Assembly (NCBI GenBank): GCA_017415515.1
Contig: JAFQGI010000027.1
Coordinates: 17,440 to 81,439 of the forward strand
Direction of reading: 5' to 3'
DNA from: Clostridia bacterium
Lineage (GTDB): Bacteria; Bacillota; Clostridia; Oscillospirales; Acutalibacteraceae
DNA: 64,000 bases
The notes beneath the pieces were generated by a model, which was not told the DNA's origin, did no database searches, and saw only the letters and a program-made list of their open reading frames with translations. This document shows positions 6,165 to 55,307 of the stretch, piece after piece. Each line of letters opens with the position of its first letter. The first letter of the stretch is position 1. Position numbers and translations under genes: made by a program.

Positions 6165-6637
6165 GGCCCCCTTGCCTAAAGGGGGCTGGCATTTGCGAAG
6201 CAAATGACTGGGGGATTCTATACCAATGAATCGAAAACACAACATAGAACTTACCACTAAAGCTAAGCAACTGCGAAAAAATATGACCGATGAAGAACGA
6301 CATTTGTGGTACCATTTTCTGCGTTCCTATCCCATTCGATTTTTGCGTCAAAAAGTCATCGACAACTATATTGTAGATTTCTACTGCCACCAAGCAAGAC
6401 TGGTTATCGAATTAGACGGCTCACAACACTACGAAAACGAAGGCTTGCAAAAGGATGCGATCCGCACCGAGAAAATCGAAAGCAGAAATTTGACAGTCAT
6501 TCGCATTCCAAATAACGCCATCCACCAAAATTTTCAAAGCGTATGTGAATATATTGACTTGTGCATACAAAAAACTTTGTATGAGAAGAATCCCCCAGTC
6601 AGCCTGGCGGCTGACAGCCCCCTTTAGGCAAGGGGGC
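6165..6637 (+). mobile_element. Family A cassette carrying a DUF559 gene
   Basis: A 473-bp unit with terminal inverted repeats. Each end reads, inward, an outer hairpin (GGCCCCCTTGCC / TAAAGGGGGCTG), an inner stem, and ACTGGGGGATTCT. The outer and inner boxes are identical at both ends, but the inner stem differs: GCATTTGC/GCAAATG on the left and TCAGCC/GGCTGA on the right. The ends enclose one AT-richer gene. Cargo-free versions of family A occur at 10007, 12878, 17294, 29843, 32811 and 37559. No target-site duplication was obvious. Confidence 0.8.
6226..6627 (+). CDS. DUF559 endonuclease-fold protein in a repeat cassette
   Basis: 133 aa, DUF559 family, a small PD-(D/E)XK-like fold related to Vsr mismatch endonucleases. 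Visible motifs: AKQLRKNMTDEERHLWYHFLR (N-terminal helix with Glu), FLRQKVIDNYIVDFYC (Asp) and LVIELDGSQHY (Glu/Asp/His), so the active site looks complete. Base composition is clearly more AT-rich than the flanking genes. The last residues, PPVSLAADSPL, and the TAG stop are encoded by the right-hand repeat. Two further members are at 48291 and 50607. The biochemical role is unknown; a link to movement or upkeep of the surrounding repeats is my inference. Confidence 0.85.
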   Translation: MNRKHNIELTTKAKQLRKNMTDEERHLWYHFLRSYPIRFLRQKVIDNYIVDFYCHQARLVIELDGSQHYENEGLQKDAIRTEKIESRNLTVIRIPNNAIHQNFQSVCEYIDLCIQKTLYEKNPPVSLAADSPL

Positions 6638-6682
6638 CACCTTCTACTCTAACTTTGCAAATTATCCAAAGGAGGTCATACT

Positions 6683-9985: not shown

Positions 9986-10006
9986 TCTTTTGTCGTTACC
10001 CTGTTA

Positions 10007-10205
10007 GCCTCCCCCCATGAGGGAGGTGGCATTTGCGGAGCAAATGACGGAGGGAGTTATATTTGCACAAACAGGTTGTTGGGGCAACACTCCCCCAGTC
10101 ACGGCTATCGCCGTGCCAGCTCGCTCGCCGCGAAGCGGCCCCCTTTTGTCACCTGCGGTGACATTTTCCCCGCTTAACGGGGAAATCCCCCTCAAGAGGG
10201 GGCCT
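10007..10205. repeat. Family A repeat, composite right end
   Basis: The left end has the outer hairpin, an inner stem ATTTGC/GCAAAT and GGAGGGAGT. A right end (ACTCCCCCAGTCA, stem CACGGC/GCCGTG) follows 33 bp later. The right side then continues with a second nested set of stems (CGCTTAACGGGG, CCCCCTC/GAGGGGG), as if one element had inserted into another. No cargo gene. It lies between the SRP RNA and dnaX. Confidence 0.8.
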
Positions 10206-12877: not shown

Positions 12878-12992
12878 GGCCCCCCTTGTCAGGGGGGCTG
12901 TCCGAGCGATAGCGAGGACTGGGGGGTAGTTTGATTTAACTACCCCTCCGTCAAAACCTACGGTTTTGACACCTCCTCTGACAAGGGGAGGC
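12878..12992. repeat. Family A repeat without cargo
   Basis: Both ends are present with only about 10 bp between them. Outer hairpins GGCCCCCCTTGT/CAGGGGGGC and CCTCCTCTGACAAGGGGAGG; inner stems TCCGAGCGATAGCGAGGA and TCAAAACC/GGTTTTGA. A MITE-like unit between recR and smpB that would put hairpins into any read-through mRNA. Confidence 0.85.
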
Positions 12993-16265: not shown

Positions 16266-16336
16266 CGCCGACGTTCGTCGGCTACACCTCATCAGTCACG
16301 GCTAACGCCGTGACAGCTTCCCCTCAAGGGGAAGCC
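16266..16336. repeat. Family B repeat, solo end
   Basis: Contains CGCCGACG/CGTCGGC, the inverted box ACACCTCATC, inner stem TCACGGC/GCCGTGA and outer hairpin GCTTCCCCTCAAGGGGAAGC. The same design occurs in reverse at 55041-55107. Confidence 0.8.
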
Positions 16337-16474
16337 TGCGCACTAATCGACAGGATCACACCACCGCCGTTGCCACACGGCGGTCTTTTTTTGCCAATTT
16401 TTCGCTTTTTCTTGCGAAAGCGGCGCAACTGTGCTAAAATGGGCGCATACACTCCACCGAAAGAGGTGTTTTTT

Positions 16475-17275: not shown

Positions 17276-17293
17276 GTGTTTCCGTACTCACAA

Positions 17294-17425
17294 GCCTCCC
17301 TCCGAGAGGGAGGTGGCATCGCCATAGGCGATGACGGAGGGAGTAAGACAAGCCGTTGAGGTTTGTGCTTATTTGATACTCCCCCAGTCAGCCTATCGGC
17401 TGACAGCCCCCTCAAGAGGGGGCCT
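17294..17425. repeat. Family A repeat without cargo
   Basis: Left outer hairpin GCCTCCCTCCGAGAGGGAGG, inner stem ATCGCC/GGCGAT, box GGAGGGAGT; 40-bp centre; box ACTCCCCCAGTCA, inner stem CAGCC/GGCTG, outer hairpin CCCCCTCAAGAGGGGG. A clean two-ended example. Confidence 0.88.
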
Positions 17426-17458
17426 ATCCCTTACCACACACCAAGGAGGTATAACTTT

Positions 17459-27604: not shown

Positions 27605-27691
27605 GCCGGTGTGATGGAATTGGCAGACGTAGTGGACTCAAAATCCACCGGTGGCGACACCGTGCCGGTTCGAGTCCGGCCACCGGCACCA
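27605..27691 (+). tRNA. tRNA-Leu (anticodon CAA)
   Basis: 87 nt with encoded CCA. Acceptor GCCGGTG/CACCGGC, anticodon stem GTGGA/TCCAC with loop CTCAAAA (anticodon CAA, reads UUG), a long variable arm (GGTGGCGACACC), and T-arm CCGGTTCGAGTCCGG. A class II tRNA. Confidence 0.97.
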
Positions 27692-27731
27692 TAGTAAAAG
27701 GGACACCCCGATGGGGTGTCCCTTTTACTAT
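27691..27731 (+). terminator. Hairpin after tRNA-Leu
   Basis: A 40-nt near-perfect palindrome AGTAAAAGGGACACCCC / GGGGTGTCCCTTTTACT that starts at the CCA end. Likely terminator or processing signal. Confidence 0.8.
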
Positions 27732-27993
27732 GGTGTTGATGATCTGTCAAGGCTCTCGATCGGCCTTATTTTTGCGCTTTGCGCAAAAATAACAGCTTCC
27801 GTGGTGACTTGCTTGCTTCTACAGAACCGCCAACTTATCTCACCACGGAAGACGGTTCGAGTCACTCTCCTCCACGGCTCGTCAAGCTCCCCCCACCGCC
27901 TTTGCCGAAAAAGACGGTTCAGAGTCCGGCCCTTGCTCCCCTATTGTTTTCGAGTTAGTTGTGCTCTCCGCTTTTGTTGTTGCGAGACAAGCA
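27732..27993. other. Gap with two T-arm-like echoes, no gene seen
   Basis: No coding signal. ACGGTTCGAGTC (27852) and ACGGTTCAGAGTCCGGCC (27913) resemble the T-arm of the adjacent tRNA-Leu (CCGGTTCGAGTCCGGCC), and a GCGCTTTGCGC palindrome lies near 27775. This could be decayed remains of an element that used the tRNA 3' end. Confidence 0.4.
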
Positions 27994-29822: not shown

Positions 29823-29842
29823 AAGCACGCACCTTCTTTGTA

Positions 29843-29973
29843 GCCTCCCTCTGACGAGGGAGGTGGATTTTGCCGCAGGCAAAAAGACGGAGGGAGTTTT
29901 CTTTTGCGCCACCTTTCGGTGGCGACTCCCTCAGTCACGGCTACGCCGTGCCAGCTCCCTCGAAGAGGGAGCC
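29843..29973. repeat. Family A repeat without cargo
   Basis: Outer hairpin GCCTCCCTCTGACGAGGGAGG, inner stem TTTTTGCC-type (TTTTGCCGCAGGCAAAA), box GGAGGGAGT; right end ACTCCCTCAGTCA, stem CACGGC/GCCGTG, CTCCCTCGAAGAGGGAG. It supplies the sequence just upstream of rimI. Confidence 0.85.
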
Positions 29974-32787: not shown

Positions 32788-32810
32788 GTGCGAAAATGCA
32801 GTCCCCGTCA

Positions 32811-33008
32811 GCCTCCCTCTATGAGGGAGGTGGATTTTTGCCGCAGGCAAAAAGACGGAGGGAGTTTTGCAGTGGCTTTTGGTTTGTTCTTATCGTGGAT
32901 TGCGTTGCCACGCCTTGCGAATAGCGATCGCCATTCTCCCGGGTTTGTGCAAAGATAACTCCCTCAGTCAAACGCTTCGCATTTGACAGCTCCCTCATAG
33001 AGGGAGCC
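32811..33008. repeat. Family A repeat without cargo, 198 bp
   Basis: Outer hairpin CCTCCCTCTATGAGGGAGG, inner stem TTTTTGCC/GGCAAAAA, box GGAGGGAGTT; about 80-bp centre without an ORF; right end AACTCCCTCAGTCA, stem AAACGC/GCATTT-type, CTCCCTCATAGAGGGAG. Confidence 0.85.
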
Positions 33009-37558: not shown

Positions 37559-37687
37559 GGCTCCCCTTGTCAGGGGAGCTGTCGAGTCGCTTGCGACGAG
37601 ACTGAGGGGTAGTCAAAGTTAGCACAAATCTAAACTACCCCTCCGTCATTTGCTTCGCAAATGCCACCTCCCCTGACAAGGGGAGGC
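37559..37687. repeat. Family A repeat without cargo
   Basis: Outer hairpin GGCTCCCCTTGTCAGGGGAG, inner stem GAGTCGC/GCGACGAG, box ACTGAGGGGTAGT; right end ACTACCCCTCCGTCA, stem TTTGC/GCAAA, CCTCCCCTGACAAGGGGAGG. Confidence 0.85.
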
Positions 37688-37762: not shown

Positions 37763-38111
37763 TGTCTCGCAACAACAAAGTAAAGCATTGTTCGTTGGCA
37801 CAATCTGTTTCGGTATCAGTATAGCAGGTTTATTCGTTCAGTCGACACGCACAGAATGTCAATCGAAAATTTGTGTAGGAGAACAAAAAGGCTTCGCACG
37901 TATCCCTCCACCGCCTAACGGCGGTCCCCCTCCCTTTAGGCAAGGGAGGTTTTTTCCTCTGTCAACCTGTGCGCACAAACAAATATCCCCCCGCATGGGG
38001 GGTATTTCATTTACAGGCATAGCCCGTCCGGTAAGAACGGACGACCGATGGTCGCCCCTACAAGCCCTATCCAAGGTGTGATAGAACAAAGCCTCCTTTG
38101 TGTAAAGGGAG
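37763..38111. other. Repeat debris between spoVAE and the XRE remnant
   Basis: No gene is supported. It holds a TGTCTCGCAACAACAAAG motif (37769), part of a family B/A end (37905-37949: stem ACCGCC/GGCGGT, hairpin CCCTTTAGGCAAGGG), a family C-like fragment (about 38016-38065) and half a family A end (38089-38114). Open frames here are repeat-encoded. Confidence 0.6.
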
Positions 38112-48287: not shown

Positions 48288-48843
48288 CGTCAGCCTTCCC
48301 CTCGAGGGGAAGGTGTCGCGGCGTCAGCCGTGACGGATGAGGTGGCAAGGTGGCGCAGGATGTCGTTGCATACTTTGTCAAATTGTTGGTTGACTTCTCG
48401 GTTGGAATAGCGTAAAACCACCATCCCCAACGAGGCGAAATATGCATCTCGTTCCTTGTCCGCTTGCTGTCCCTCATCCATATAATGTTGTGAGCCGTCC
48501 AGCTCAATAACTAATTTCTTTTCCGCACAATAAAAATCAGCAATGTATTGTCCCATCACTTTTTGACGATTGAATGTCACGGATAGCCCTTTCAAAAAAT
48601 CGTACCACAAATGTCGTTCTTCTTTGGTCATACTCTTGCGCAATTCTTGTGCGTTGCGAGTTAACTTTGAGTTGTTTCGTTCGTTCATATAACACCTCAT
48701 CCGACCTCGCTTCGCTCGGCCACCTTCCCCTCAAGGGGAAGGCTTTCTCGGGAATATGGCGTCAGCCATATTCGAGGGGCGACAACAAAACCAACGACCT
48801 GTACTATCTAACAGTCGCCCCGCCCCTCAAGGGGAGGCTTTTT
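48288..48843 (-). mobile_element. Family B cassette with DUF559 gene, copy 1
   Basis: About 556 bp. Ends share AGCCTTCCCC, a CGAG or TGAG loop, GGGGAAGGTG, a variable inner stem (TCGCGGC/GCCGTGA on the left, GCCGAGC/CGAGGTC on the right) and GGATGAGGTG. The gene side is extended by a family D unit. A near-identical copy in the same orientation lies at 50604-51160; together they bracket the aconitase X pair. Confidence 0.8.
48291..48688 (-). CDS. DUF559 endonuclease-fold protein, copy 1
   Basis: 132 aa from ATG 48688. Motifs: AQELRKSMTKEERHLWYDFLK, FNRQKVMGQYIADFYC, LVIELDGSQHYMDEG; the putative acidic residues and His are present. Its SD is GATGAGGTG, which is the conserved box of the repeat itself, and the last 20 or so residues (HLATSSVTADAATPSPRGEG) and the TGA stop are also encoded by the repeat. 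About 93% identical to the copy at 50607 and clearly related to the one at 6226. Function not established. Confidence 0.85.
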
Positions 48844-50603: not shown

Positions 50604-51160
50604 CGTCAGCCTTCCCCTTGAGGGGAAGGTGTCGCGGCGTTAGCCGTGACGGATGAGGTGGCAAGGTGGTGCAGAATATCGTTGCATACTCTGTCAAATT
50701 GTTGGTTGACTTCTCGGTTGGAATAGCGTAAAACCACCATCCCCAACGAGGCAAAATACGCATCTCTCTCCTTGTCCGCTTGTTGTCCTTCATCCATATA
50801 ATGTTGTGAGCCGTCCAGCTCAATGACTAATTTCTTTTCCGCACAATAAAAATCAGCAATGTATTGTCCCATCACTTTTTGACGATTGAATGTCACTGGT
50901 AATCTTTTCAAAAAATCGTACCACAAGTGCCGTTCTTCTTTGGTCATACTTTTGCGCAATATTTGTGCGTTGTGAGTTAACTTTGAGTTGTTTCGTTCAT
51001 TCATAAAACACCTCATCCGACCTCGCTTCGCTCGGCCACCTTCCCCTCAAGGGGAAGGCTTTCTCGGGAATATGGCGTCAGCCATATTCGAGGGGCGACA
51101 ACGAAACCAACGACCTGTACTATCTAACAGTCGCCCCGCCCCTCAAGGGGAAGGCTTTTT
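50604..51160 (-). mobile_element. Family B cassette with DUF559 gene, copy 2
   Basis: About 557 bp, aligned end to end with copy 1 (48288-48843), including the family D tail (TCGGGAATATGGCGTCAGCC and CAACGACCTGTACTATCTAA). Same orientation as copy 1. It separates the OYE-type reductase gene from the aconitase X pair. Confidence 0.8.
50607..51004 (-). CDS. DUF559 endonuclease-fold protein, copy 2
   Basis: 132 aa from ATG 51004. Differs from copy 1 at about nine or ten positions (for example NAQILRK for NAQELRK, KRLPVT for KGLSVT), none in the putative active-site motifs YIADFYC or IELDGSQHY. The repeat again supplies SD and stop (NAATPSPQGEG). Intact reading frames in three copies suggest selection for the protein. 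Confidence 0.85.
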
Positions 51161-53688: not shown

Positions 53689-53819
53689 AAGTCACCTCCA
53701 AAAAAGGCTCAACAGGTTTATTATAGCACGCTTTTGAGAGCAAAGCAAGGGGATGTGTAGGCTTGTAGGACCACAAGGGAGACAGTAAGTCGTCCATTTG
53801 TCATCGCCTACGGCGATGC

Positions 53820-54184
53820 GGGACGTCGTGGGCGCCGTCCCCTACGGTCACGATGTGGGCTTGGATGGAGATGGTAGGGGCGGGCCTCCGGACCACCCGA
53901 TAGATTTCTTTGCGGGACGTCGTGAACGCCGTCCCCTACGGTCACAATGTGGGCTTGGATGGAGATTGTAGGGGCGGGCCTCCGGACCGCCCGATCGATT
54001 TCTTCACGGGAGGTCGAGGACGCCCTCCCCTACGGTCACGATGTAGGCTTGGATGGAGATTGTAGGGGCGGGCCCCCGGACCGCCCGATCGATTTCTTCA
54101 CGGGAGGTCGAGGACGCCCTCCCCTACGGTCACGATGTAGGCTTGGATGGAGATTGTAGGGGCGGGCCTCCGGACCGCCCGTAG
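53820..54184. repeat. 94-bp tandem array of family C units
   Basis: Four copies with starts of TTGGATGGAG at 53861, 53955, 54049 and 54143, exactly 94 bp apart. Each has GTAGGGGCGGGCCTCCGGAC, CCGCCCGAT, an ATTTCTTC spacer, then GGGAGGTCGAGGACGCCCTC and CCCTACGGTCACGATGT. Copies 3 and 4 are nearly identical. A fifth, dispersed unit lies at 54935-55014. Reading frames here are artefacts since 94 is not a multiple of 3. Confidence 0.9.
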
Positions 54185-54200
54185 CGGTGTCAAATGGAAC

Positions 54201-54229
54201 AAAAAAAGAGGGGATCCCTCCCCTCTCGG
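54201..54229 (-). terminator. Terminator of the AbrB-type gene
   Basis: GAGAGGGGAGGGATCCCCTC followed by TTTTTTT on the minus strand. Confidence 0.88.
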
Positions 54230-54235
54230 CTTTGC

Positions 54236-54394
54236 TTATTTCGACGTGGTGGGGGTCAGCAAAACCCCCTCCTCCGTGATGCGGATGGCAACGCTGTCCC
54301 CGGCGCTCAGCCCCAATGCCTGCCGCACATCCCGCGGGATCACAAGGCGTCCCATCTTGTCGATGTTGCGGTGAAAGGTGAATGGCTCGCTCAT
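54236..54394 (-). CDS. AbrB/MazE/SpoVT-type DNA-binding protein, 52 aa
   Basis: A complete swapped-hairpin AbrB domain: MSEPFTFHRNIDKMGRLVIP, RDVRQALGLSAGDSVAIRI, then TEEGVLLTPTTSK. Motif MGRLVIPRDVRQALGLSAGD is diagnostic. ATG 54394 follows GGGAGG. Probably a transition-state or housekeeping repressor dimer or tetramer; no toxin gene is next to it, so antitoxin function is unlikely. A terminator-ended leader lies 18 bp upstream of its SD (54412-54574). Confidence 0.88.
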   Translation of the reverse strand: MSEPFTFHRNIDKMGRLVIPRDVRQALGLSAGDSVAIRITEEGVLLTPTTSK

Positions 54395-54411
54395 TTCGTT
54401 TGCCTCCCAAT

Positions 54412-54574
54412 AAAAAAGGTGTGCAACCGAAGCCGCACACCCGAAAAATGCTTAGCTTTGTTGCTGCGAGACAAACTATTTACAACAAACCAGGTGGCAA
54501 GCGTAAATAAGCCAGCATTTTTACCGAAGCAAAAATGCTTGCCAACCAATTTGTTGATATGAAGTTCGTCTCGC
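54412..54574 (-). ncRNA. Candidate structured leader RNA or small RNA
   Basis: From the predicted start (54574) the RNA folds as a rod: GCGAGACGAAC (54574-54564) pairs with GTTTGTCTCGC; CAACAAA pairs with TTTGTTG; TGGCAAGC pairs with GCTTGCCA; and the tip is GCATTTTT/AAAAATGC. A separate hairpin GGTGTGC/GCACACC with loop GGCTTCGGTT and TTTTTT ends it at 54412, just before the AbrB-type gene's SD. I do not recognise the class; a rod with internal loops is also the shape of 6S RNA. Confidence 0.6.
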
Positions 54575-54580
54575 AAGGAT

Positions 54581-54609
54581 ATTTTAGCATTTTGAGGGGC
54601 AAAAATCAA
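54581..54609 (-). promoter_or_regulatory. Promoter of the candidate RNA / AbrB-type gene
   Basis: On the minus strand: TTGATT, 17-bp spacer, TAAAAT; predicted start near 54574. Confidence 0.8.
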
Positions 54610-54690
54610 CCCCATTCGACGGATATGTGGCAATTTTCGGAATTTTCGTTCGACATTTTTCCACATTTTACGGAAAAAGCCTTGTTAAAT

Positions 54691-54811
54691 CCCCCCTGAC
54701 CTCGCTTTCGCTCGGCCACCTTCGCTCGCCGCGAAACGGCCCCCCTTTGTCTGCTTCGCAGACATTTCCCCCGCTTAACGGGGGAATCACCTTTAGGCAA
54801 GGGGGGCTTGG
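54691..54811. repeat. Composite family A/B repeat
   Basis: CCTCGCTTTCGCTCGG stem, GCCGCGAAACGGC, stem TCTGC/GCAGA, CCCCCGCTTAACGGGGG and the hairpin CCTTTAGGCAAGG; close to the composite right end at 10120-10205. Confidence 0.7.
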
Positions 54812-55307
54812 TGGGTTTGTGCGAACGACAAACCCTATAACCCTATCGTAGGGGAGGGTCTCTGTGCCCTCCCGAGATAAGTGCTATATGCGCGGGAGGG
54901 GATGGAACCCCTCCCCTACGGTCACGATGTAGGCTTGGATGAAGATTGTAGGGGCGGGCCTCCGGACCGCCCGATAGGTTTCTTTACGGGACGTTGTGAA
55001 CGCCGTCCCCTACGGATTCTATCCGAGGTTGGATAGAGAAAGGCTTCCCCTTGAGGGGAAGCTCCCGCGTAGCGGGTGATGAGGTGTAGCCGACGCAGTC
55101 GGCGTTAATGCGGCACGTGCAAACCCCATCGCTCCACGACCACCTCATCCGTCTTTTCGCCTGCGGCGATGCGGGCGGTCGAGGACGCCCGCCCCTACGG
55201 TGTCTTTTGGGGTCGGTGCGTGATATGAAAACGGGACGTTGTGAACGCCGTCCCCTACGGATTCTATCCGAGGTTGGTTTCATTCCTCATTCCTCCTCCC
55301 CCACCGC
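54812..55307. repeat. Cluster of family C and B repeats, no gene
   Basis: Family C units at 54848-54919 and 54948-55014, a family B end at 55041-55107 (GCTTCCCCTTGAGGGGAAGC, stem CCCGCGTAGCGGG, GATGAGGTG, CCGACGCAGTCGG), and partial units at 55130-55200 and 55230-55265. With the array at 53820 this makes a repeat hot spot beside the ribosomal operon end. Confidence 0.75.

Follow-up and report, generated by a model that had tools for sequence, protein, structure and literature searches.

DUF559 genes lie between structured inverted ends

The window, i.e. the whole 64-kb stretch of DNA analysed here (contig JAFQGI010000027.1 of a Clostridia bacterium, positions 17,440 to 81,439), contains three DUF559 genes, all with intact open reading frames, and each is the only gene inside an element bounded by structured inverted ends. 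The three proteins score 102.9-111 bits against the PF04480 profile, for which the curated cut-off is 20.6, and so belong to this family. An earlier inspection of the sequence (the original prediction) had described three such genes between such ends; reading frames, PF04480 matches and flank complementarity agree with it, and its scope proved wider than first described. The gene-bearing elements and their parts are as follows (E, expectation value against PF04480; the triplex code is defined below).

6165..6638, plus strand: element 1 as a whole, DUF559 gene and two inverted ends with 27-nt arms
6166..6216, plus strand: left end of element 1, with outer hairpin, inner hairpin and mirror box; 8/8 match to the triplex code
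6226-6627, plus strand: DUF559 gene of element 1; 133 amino acids, E 1.1e-29, last codons inside the right end
6590..6637, minus strand: right end of element 1; 8/8 match to the triplex code
48288..48843, minus strand: element 2, a 556-bp repeated unit that aligns to 50604-51160; flanks unrelated
48290-48700, minus strand: DUF559 gene of element 2; 136 amino acids, E 3.4e-32
About 48291-48346 and 48696-48745: family-B ends of element 2
50604..51160, minus strand: element 3, a 557-bp unit with DUF559 gene and family-B ends; a copy of element 2
50606-51016, minus strand: DUF559 gene of element 3; 136 amino acids, E 1.1e-31

The outer arms of element 1 (6165-6191 and 6612-6638) are 96% complementary across 27 nt. 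The 3' end of the DUF559 gene overlaps the sequence of the repeat end and, because the gene runs into this sequence, part of the protein's C terminus is encoded within the repeat. The repeated unit of elements 2 and 3 (556/557 bp) extends beyond the inverted ends, to 48843 and 51160, respectively. The host genome (a 1.5-Mb assembly, 68% complete) contains four DUF559 genes; the fourth copy (C2:2715-3035) is also bracketed by ends of like design, and so all four genes lie between inverted ends.

DUF559 is here a single domain of about 110 amino acids. Among solved chains, the family profile matched 3hrl ('Endonuclease-Like Protein') with an E of 1e-19 and 3r3p ('Mobile intron protein') with an E of 0.0014; we take the latter to be I-Bth0305I. 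The ratio of nonsynonymous to synonymous substitution (dN/dS) has a median of 0.083 over 142 related pairs and is 0.10 between elements 2 and 3. Because these values are low, we conclude that the DUF559 protein is kept by purifying selection. Residues E24, D51, E62, D64, H68 and D77, numbered on the first of the sequences compared, are invariant.

The same ends are also present without the gene. The window contains 12 perfect motifs, compared to none in each of 20 dinucleotide shuffles; two of them are the ends of element 1 and the others form gene-less pairs or single ends, in line with the cargo-free units reported originally. The gene-less pairs have a length of about 110-200 bp, carry the same ends as the DUF559 elements and are located in other intergenic gaps. 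Moreover, the outer palindrome of family B is present in 51 copies in the genome (reversed control, 0). Inverted ends common to a gene-bearing form and to short gene-less forms are one mark of an insertion sequence and its miniature inverted-repeat transposable elements (MITEs), and the gene-less copies of 110-200 bp look like MITEs. These units are:

10006..10203, no strand assigned: cargo-free paired unit, MITE-like, imperfect
12879..12992, no strand assigned: cargo-free paired unit, one perfect end (12879-12927)
16285..16338, minus strand: single family-B end, 93% complementary to 50607-50660
17293..17423, no strand assigned: cargo-free paired unit, two perfect ends
29842..29972, no strand assigned: cargo-free paired unit, two perfect ends
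32810..33007, no strand assigned: cargo-free paired unit, two perfect ends
37560..37686, no strand assigned: cargo-free paired unit, two perfect ends
37902..37949, minus strand: single end, 8/8 match to the triplex code

The ends carry a purine box that mirrors the hairpin

From the outside inward, each end consists of a pyrimidine/purine (Y/R) hairpin, a second hairpin of variable sequence and a purine box. The end families A and B that had been distinguished at first are both present; they are variants of one architecture and not separate designs. When folded as single-stranded DNA, six ends of the window are predicted to form the outer hairpin and the inner stem, with the box unpaired (folding z of -3.5 to -5.3; 0/200 shuffles as good). 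A stem of at least 5 bp is found in 140 of the 155 long connectors of perfect ends (8 expected), and the connectors comprise 113 distinct sequences. The second loop has at least 12 nt in 155 of the 163 perfect ends, with a median of 19 nt over the distinct Clostridia loops; in many rhizobial, sphingomonad and Chloroflexota ends it has 3 nt.

The box had been noted as conserved, and what had been overlooked is that it repeats the purine arm of the hairpin in reverse order, without complementing it, following a code in which G becomes G, A becomes A or T, and C becomes T. To score this code, we used the last eight bases of the arm in 366 flanks, 268 of which have a Y/R hairpin. Under mirror order and code, 163 of the 268 ends match at 8/8 positions, compared to 3.6 with shuffled tails, 26 with an altered code, 8 in direct order and 3 as reverse complement. 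By set, 155 of 240 ends match at 8/8 in the mostly Clostridia set (shuffled 1.4; direct order 5), 17 of 29 in the Chloroflexota set (shuffled 0.4; direct order 10) and 8 of 27 in the plasmid set (shuffled 0.4; direct order 3). The direct-order count is high in Chloroflexota because GGGAGAGGG is its own mirror. Family-B ends match at 7/8 positions in a hand count and are, therefore, absent from the 12 perfect motifs of the window.

When the register was fixed by the G positions only, A corresponded to A in 323 cases, to T in 139 and to another base in 7; C corresponded to T in 64 and to another base in 7. T is a tolerated base opposite a C.G inversion in a triplex. Moreover, the TG..GAC form is represented by 243 distinct ends, and in 237 of them the base that follows GAC depends on the one that closes the outer hairpin (C with T in 123 ends, G with G in 114). 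Judged from the sequences, the code of the box fits what is expected of the third strand in an intrastrand triplex of the purine motif, with the antiparallel triads G*G.C and A/T*A.T (PMC4666352; here and below, statements with a PMC number refer to the available parts of the paper). The order of a class II intrastrand triplex, i.e. pyrimidine arm, purine arm and antiparallel purine third strand, is found in the 163 of 268 ends with an 8/8 match, a count that also accepts C to T, beyond the published triplex search code.

Downstream of the DUF559 gene in locus L172, there is a rhizobial palindromic repeat with the same design of hairpin, inner stem and mirror box; this may be the rhizobial ABC repeat.

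Gene and ends are linked across genomes

DUF559 is present in 6 of 10 genomes of the genus, in 48 of 150 genomes of the family (some matches being fragments) and in 93 of 201 Chloroflexota genomes. Most of the homologues examined have flanks of the type described, a point that the original prediction had singled out for checking. In the mostly Clostridia set, which includes a few Negativicutes and Anaerolineaceae loci, 117 of 146 genes have a perfect motif in either orientation at a distance of at most 260 bp (controls, 45/1061 window pairs). The same holds for 19 of 29 Chloroflexota genes (controls, 4/152) and for 15 of 24 plasmid genes, a set without control windows. From the 93 DUF559-positive Chloroflexota genomes, 30 loci were used; from 54 plasmid records with DUF559 (57 places), 26 were picked by lineage before the flanks were seen, and 24 passed the domain-length filter.

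The flanks of the gene also match each other. In the genus and family genomes, 49 of 70 DUF559 genes with both flanks present had a flank-to-flank inverted-repeat score of at least 14, a count from which the broken genes L082, L083 and L085 are excluded and from which length filters removed shorter domains; the controls gave 3/687 at shifted positions in the same loci and 1/600 at window positions. This score was reached by 52 of 74 loci in the genome_contigs set, which overlaps the family set and, like it, contains related species that are not independent (controls, 16/1803), by 14 of 28 Chloroflexota loci (controls, 1/398) and by 13 of 26 plasmid loci (controls, 8/390). These last 13 loci belong to Pseudanabaena, Picosynechococcus, Deinococcus (four), two sphingomonad genera, Sphingomonas (two), Qipengyuania, S. 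meliloti and Azospirillum lipoferum; such ends flank plasmid DUF559 genes in Pseudomonadota, Deinococcota and Cyanobacteriota. The other 13 plasmid loci scored below 14, including those from Geobacillus, Thermoactinomyces, P. aeruginosa, E. coli, Klebsiella, Neisseria, Photobacterium and Shinella; in several of the loci below 14, a one-sided motif was seen by eye. As a control, 30 GIY-YIG loci (95,650 bp) contained no motif; only seven of these loci have a frame of at most 134 amino acids, none of the seven has a motif nearby, and the remaining long frames serve as background only.

The A-type motif CCTCCCTN{2,8}AGGGAGGTGGC was detected in 30 of 48 DUF559-positive and in 9 of 102 DUF559-negative family genomes (p 1e-11, ignoring phylogeny). 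In a stricter count, 8 genomes in which the copies possibly all lie beside DUF559 were dropped by hand, partly as places were unlisted, giving 22/48 and 9/102 (p 6e-7, likewise ignoring phylogeny). In total, we conclude that DUF559 genes and the structured ends are linked.

DUF559 genes are also found on gut phage and viral contigs (L176, MT835749.1, and L281-L291). In MT835749.1, Clostridia-type ends lie upstream of DUF559, which suggests a possible route between hosts.

End type and enzyme vary together

After removal of identical loci (192 to 183), the nearest hairpin within 260 bp of each of 183 genes was sorted by its core into seven types. A core palindrome is present on at least one side of 147 of the 183 genes and on both sides of 87; the two sides have the same type in 79 of the 87 (mean 23 and maximum 35 in 2000 shuffles). 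On a DUF559 tree with 79 rows, built from 111 columns and with many forks unresolved, the end types need 16 changes, compared to an average of 40.6 in shuffles, none of 200 of which was as low. In a tree thinned to at most 75% identity (47 rows), 17 changes are needed and the minimum in 300 shuffles was 24. Taken singly, the end types Y7 and Y3 are not clustered on the tree (26 and 500, respectively, of 500 shuffles as low). Finally, pairs of proteins that share the end type but come from different genomes have a mean identity of 63.1% (n=187). The mean is 53.5% where the genome is shared and the ends differ (n=34), and 53.0% where genome and ends both differ (n=807). Thus, the enzyme follows the end type.

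Gene and ends were copied together

Elements 2 and 3 are one duplicated unit, for which the alignment score implies 27 mismatches and one gap, i.e. about 95% identity. Beyond the unit, the flanks of the two elements are unrelated (14/60 and 21/60 identical positions). We conclude that gene and ends were copied together as a unit.

Empty sites had been proposed as a check on joint movement. At the site of element 3 in the relative G008, in which the neighbouring protein is 78% identical, the gene order is kept and the element is absent. Similarly, no DUF559 is present 3' of atpC, the site of element 1, in three genus relatives (L210/G004, L211/G009 and L213/G008). In five other genus relatives, read on the other side of atpC, there was no DUF559 among the matches listed for the atpC contigs, and G005 had no atpC match. 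Gene and ends are absent together at both places; these relatives are distant and none provides an exact empty site. A search for exact filled and empty pairs in S. meliloti, Azospirillum and E. coli gave no clean pair: the rhizobial empty-site matches are broken pieces, and the records of the Azospirillum brasilense group with the whole region carry the gene.

In E. coli, an ST131 strain has an efflux operon beside sapF (L219 6772-12723) where H15 has the DUF559 gene ycjD (L220 6792-7145). The ycjD region, used as a query, was covered to at least 80% at a place in 3362 of 5426 E. coli genomes.

Comparison with known systems

The original prediction had drawn an analogy to repetitive extragenic palindromic (REP) sequences and their REP-associated tyrosine transposases (RAYT) only, overlooking the likeness of the ends to the BoxC/PIT/TM repeats. 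These have been known since the 1990s, occur in >260 genomes and are class II intrastrand triplex motifs tied to genome instability; no mobility activities were found beside them, according to the available text (PMC4666352). They share with the ends described here the order of pyrimidine arm, purine arm and mirrored purine third strand, and they too are dispersed in intergenic copies, some of them as inverted pairs. By contrast, a nuclease gene lies between the motifs here, whereas no mobility genes are near the published motifs, and the second loop of the Clostridia ends is itself a hairpin, which exceeds the short loop of 1-6 nt. Because the published search for intrastrand triplex-forming (ITxF) motifs was limited to loops of 1-6 nt (PMC4666352), ends with a hairpin as second loop would escape it. 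The main text of that paper does not contain the words DUF559, endonuclease or ycjD; its motif no. 9 in Table 1 is the sequence that we find about 167 bp past ycjD of E. coli. In the open-access literature, searched mostly at the level of listings, we found no published link between DUF559 and repeats of the BoxC/PIT/TM type.

As in the REP/RAYT system, one small nuclease gene is flanked by palindromic repeats that also stand alone, target duplications are not seen and single-strand folding is suspected. The enzyme here belongs to PF04480, whereas RAYT is an IS200/IS605-like HUH enzyme; moreover, the ends carry the triplex code, and the GTAG tag of REP/RAYT was not seen in them by eye. CGTC-tagged REPs are said to lack a dedicated transposase (PMC3733652), and GAC-G, which is CGTC in reverse, borders the inner stem in 117 of the 243 TG..GAC ends. 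However, GAC-T is found in the other 126, and an AT-starting stem of 8-9 bp is no rule here. With about half of the ends having GAC-T and a mirror code that is common across phyla, we keep an identification of the ends as CGTC-tagged REPs only as a lead.

A proposed role for DUF559 and alternatives

We consider it probable that the elements are small mobile elements made up of DUF559, a nuclease of the Vsr/EDxHD type, and two inverted ends capable of forming a triplex; the folding and the cutting are inferred. In the proposed mechanism, the autonomous form would be two inverted ends and a gene for a single-domain DUF559 nuclease. In single-stranded DNA, e.g. during replication, the box would enter the major groove of the hairpin, giving an intrastrand triplex of the purine-motif type. 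DUF559 would recognise the folded ends of its own type and cut beside them, and host repair would complete excision or copying. Gene-less units would move in trans as MITEs, and single ends would be remnants. DUF559 had originally been put forward as a possible mobility or domestication enzyme of the repeats; linkage, tree and duplication as a unit partly support this role, in which DUF559 would cut or move the ends.

Several points weigh against this proposal. A hydrolytic nuclease alone cannot rejoin DNA and so does not account for the insertion step. No consistent target-site duplication was found in 76 elements. No ends of the type described were seen by eye in Geobacillus, Thermoactinomyces, P. 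aeruginosa and phage Tunturi_2, and 36 of the 183 DUF559 loci lack all seven core palindromes on both flanks, though some of these have other palindromes. Conversely, of the 102 family genomes that lack a DUF559 match, 9 contain the A-type motif. In Deinococcus (L170, L177, L179 and L181) and Synechocystis (L178), the box faces away from the gene, the reverse of its orientation in Clostridia, and in Chloroflexota the mirror order is less telling, given that 10 of 29 ends also match at 8/8 in direct order. The motif of ycjD is one-sided and is found by the published consensus; our stricter finder misses it. Finally, in-cell footprinting indicated that the E. coli triplex is minor or transient, and no effect in vivo had emerged from earlier studies (PMC4666352).

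The outer flanks of the elements tend to AAAG on the left (A-rich) and CTTT on the right (T-rich). Together with the absence of a target duplication, this fits, but does not prove, a single-strand route. In the screen for target duplications, one of 80 combinations of offset and length passed (4 matches, 0.28 expected), which we read as chance.

It is fairly unlikely that DUF559 is a passenger, or a gene useful to the host in mismatch or structure repair, between repeats moved by another enzyme. Gene-less pairs and single ends are common, as such a passenger would allow, and the motif also occurs in some family genomes without DUF559 (9/102); moreover, VsrA of Caulobacter, which has a DUF559 domain, is regarded as a putative nuclease of mismatch repair and acts in an SOS/repair context (PMC12907096). 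However, if DUF559 were a passenger, its own tree would hardly be expected to follow the end type, nor would type-matched ends be expected around the gene in several phyla. In the elements of the window, DUF559 is the sole gene.

A second alternative, itself compatible with mobility by DUF559, is that what maintains the purine tracts is a G-quadruplex or contacts with protein, and not a triplex. The proteobacterial and Chloroflexota ends have four G runs in their sequence and might form a G-quadruplex. Nevertheless, we regard this alternative as unlikely: a G-quadruplex predicts neither the mirror order nor the change from C to T (64/71), it makes no prediction of the tie to the closing base of the hairpin (237/243 ends), and stable folding into a triplex has been reported in vitro for an E. 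coli motif (PMC4666352).

We consider it quite unlikely that DUF559 is a free-standing homing endonuclease that makes a break at a sequence site into which the element is copied by recombination, with the structured ends as mere context. The match to the mobile intron protein 3r3p argues for such an enzyme, as does a published assignment of a DUF559 gene to the EDxHD homing family (PMC9403480), and the relation to EDxHD homing endonucleases and Vsr is one of nuclease domain sequence. However, the elements of the window occupy intergenic sites that are unrelated to one another, their inverted ends match in type, and gene-less copies accompany them. Moreover, I-Bth0305I is a long multi-domain protein with a target near 60 bp (PMC3943268), in contrast to the single domain here.

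Very improbably, the units would serve in transcription termination or as RNA elements and flank small genes by chance, a reading that suits the A-rich left and T-rich right outer flanks but leaves the inverted type-matched pairs, the copied unit and the lack of a nearby motif in the seven small GIY-YIG genes unexplained.

Beyond the window, we suggest tentatively, as a possibility nearly in balance, that elements with DUF559 and triplex-capable ends form a class of mobile elements in several phyla, that DUF559 as their sole enzyme reads the intrastrand triplex, and that BoxC/PIT/TM repeats, in E. coli and cyanobacteria among others, are the MITEs or remains of this class. If so, there would be an enzyme dedicated to natural DNA triplexes; this nuclease would account for the spread and the inverted pairing of BoxC/PIT/TM repeats, and a domain of unknown function would be assigned a role. 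DUF559 elements may thus explain the origin of a long-known, unexplained kind of bacterial repeat, and a small enzyme together with a short DNA end would allow a direct test of whether DNA triplexes act in cells.

Other repeats in the window

Positions 53818-55280 contain a near-tandem array of 94-bp units together with related dispersed units; these form a different repeat family that is not of the triplex type. Between 19200 and 25500, several related coding segments have 61-87% identity among the repeats and are perhaps duplicated genes. Finally, an inverted repeat with perfect 23-bp arms separated by 3 nt (27687-27735) is located at the end of a tRNA match (27605-27688).
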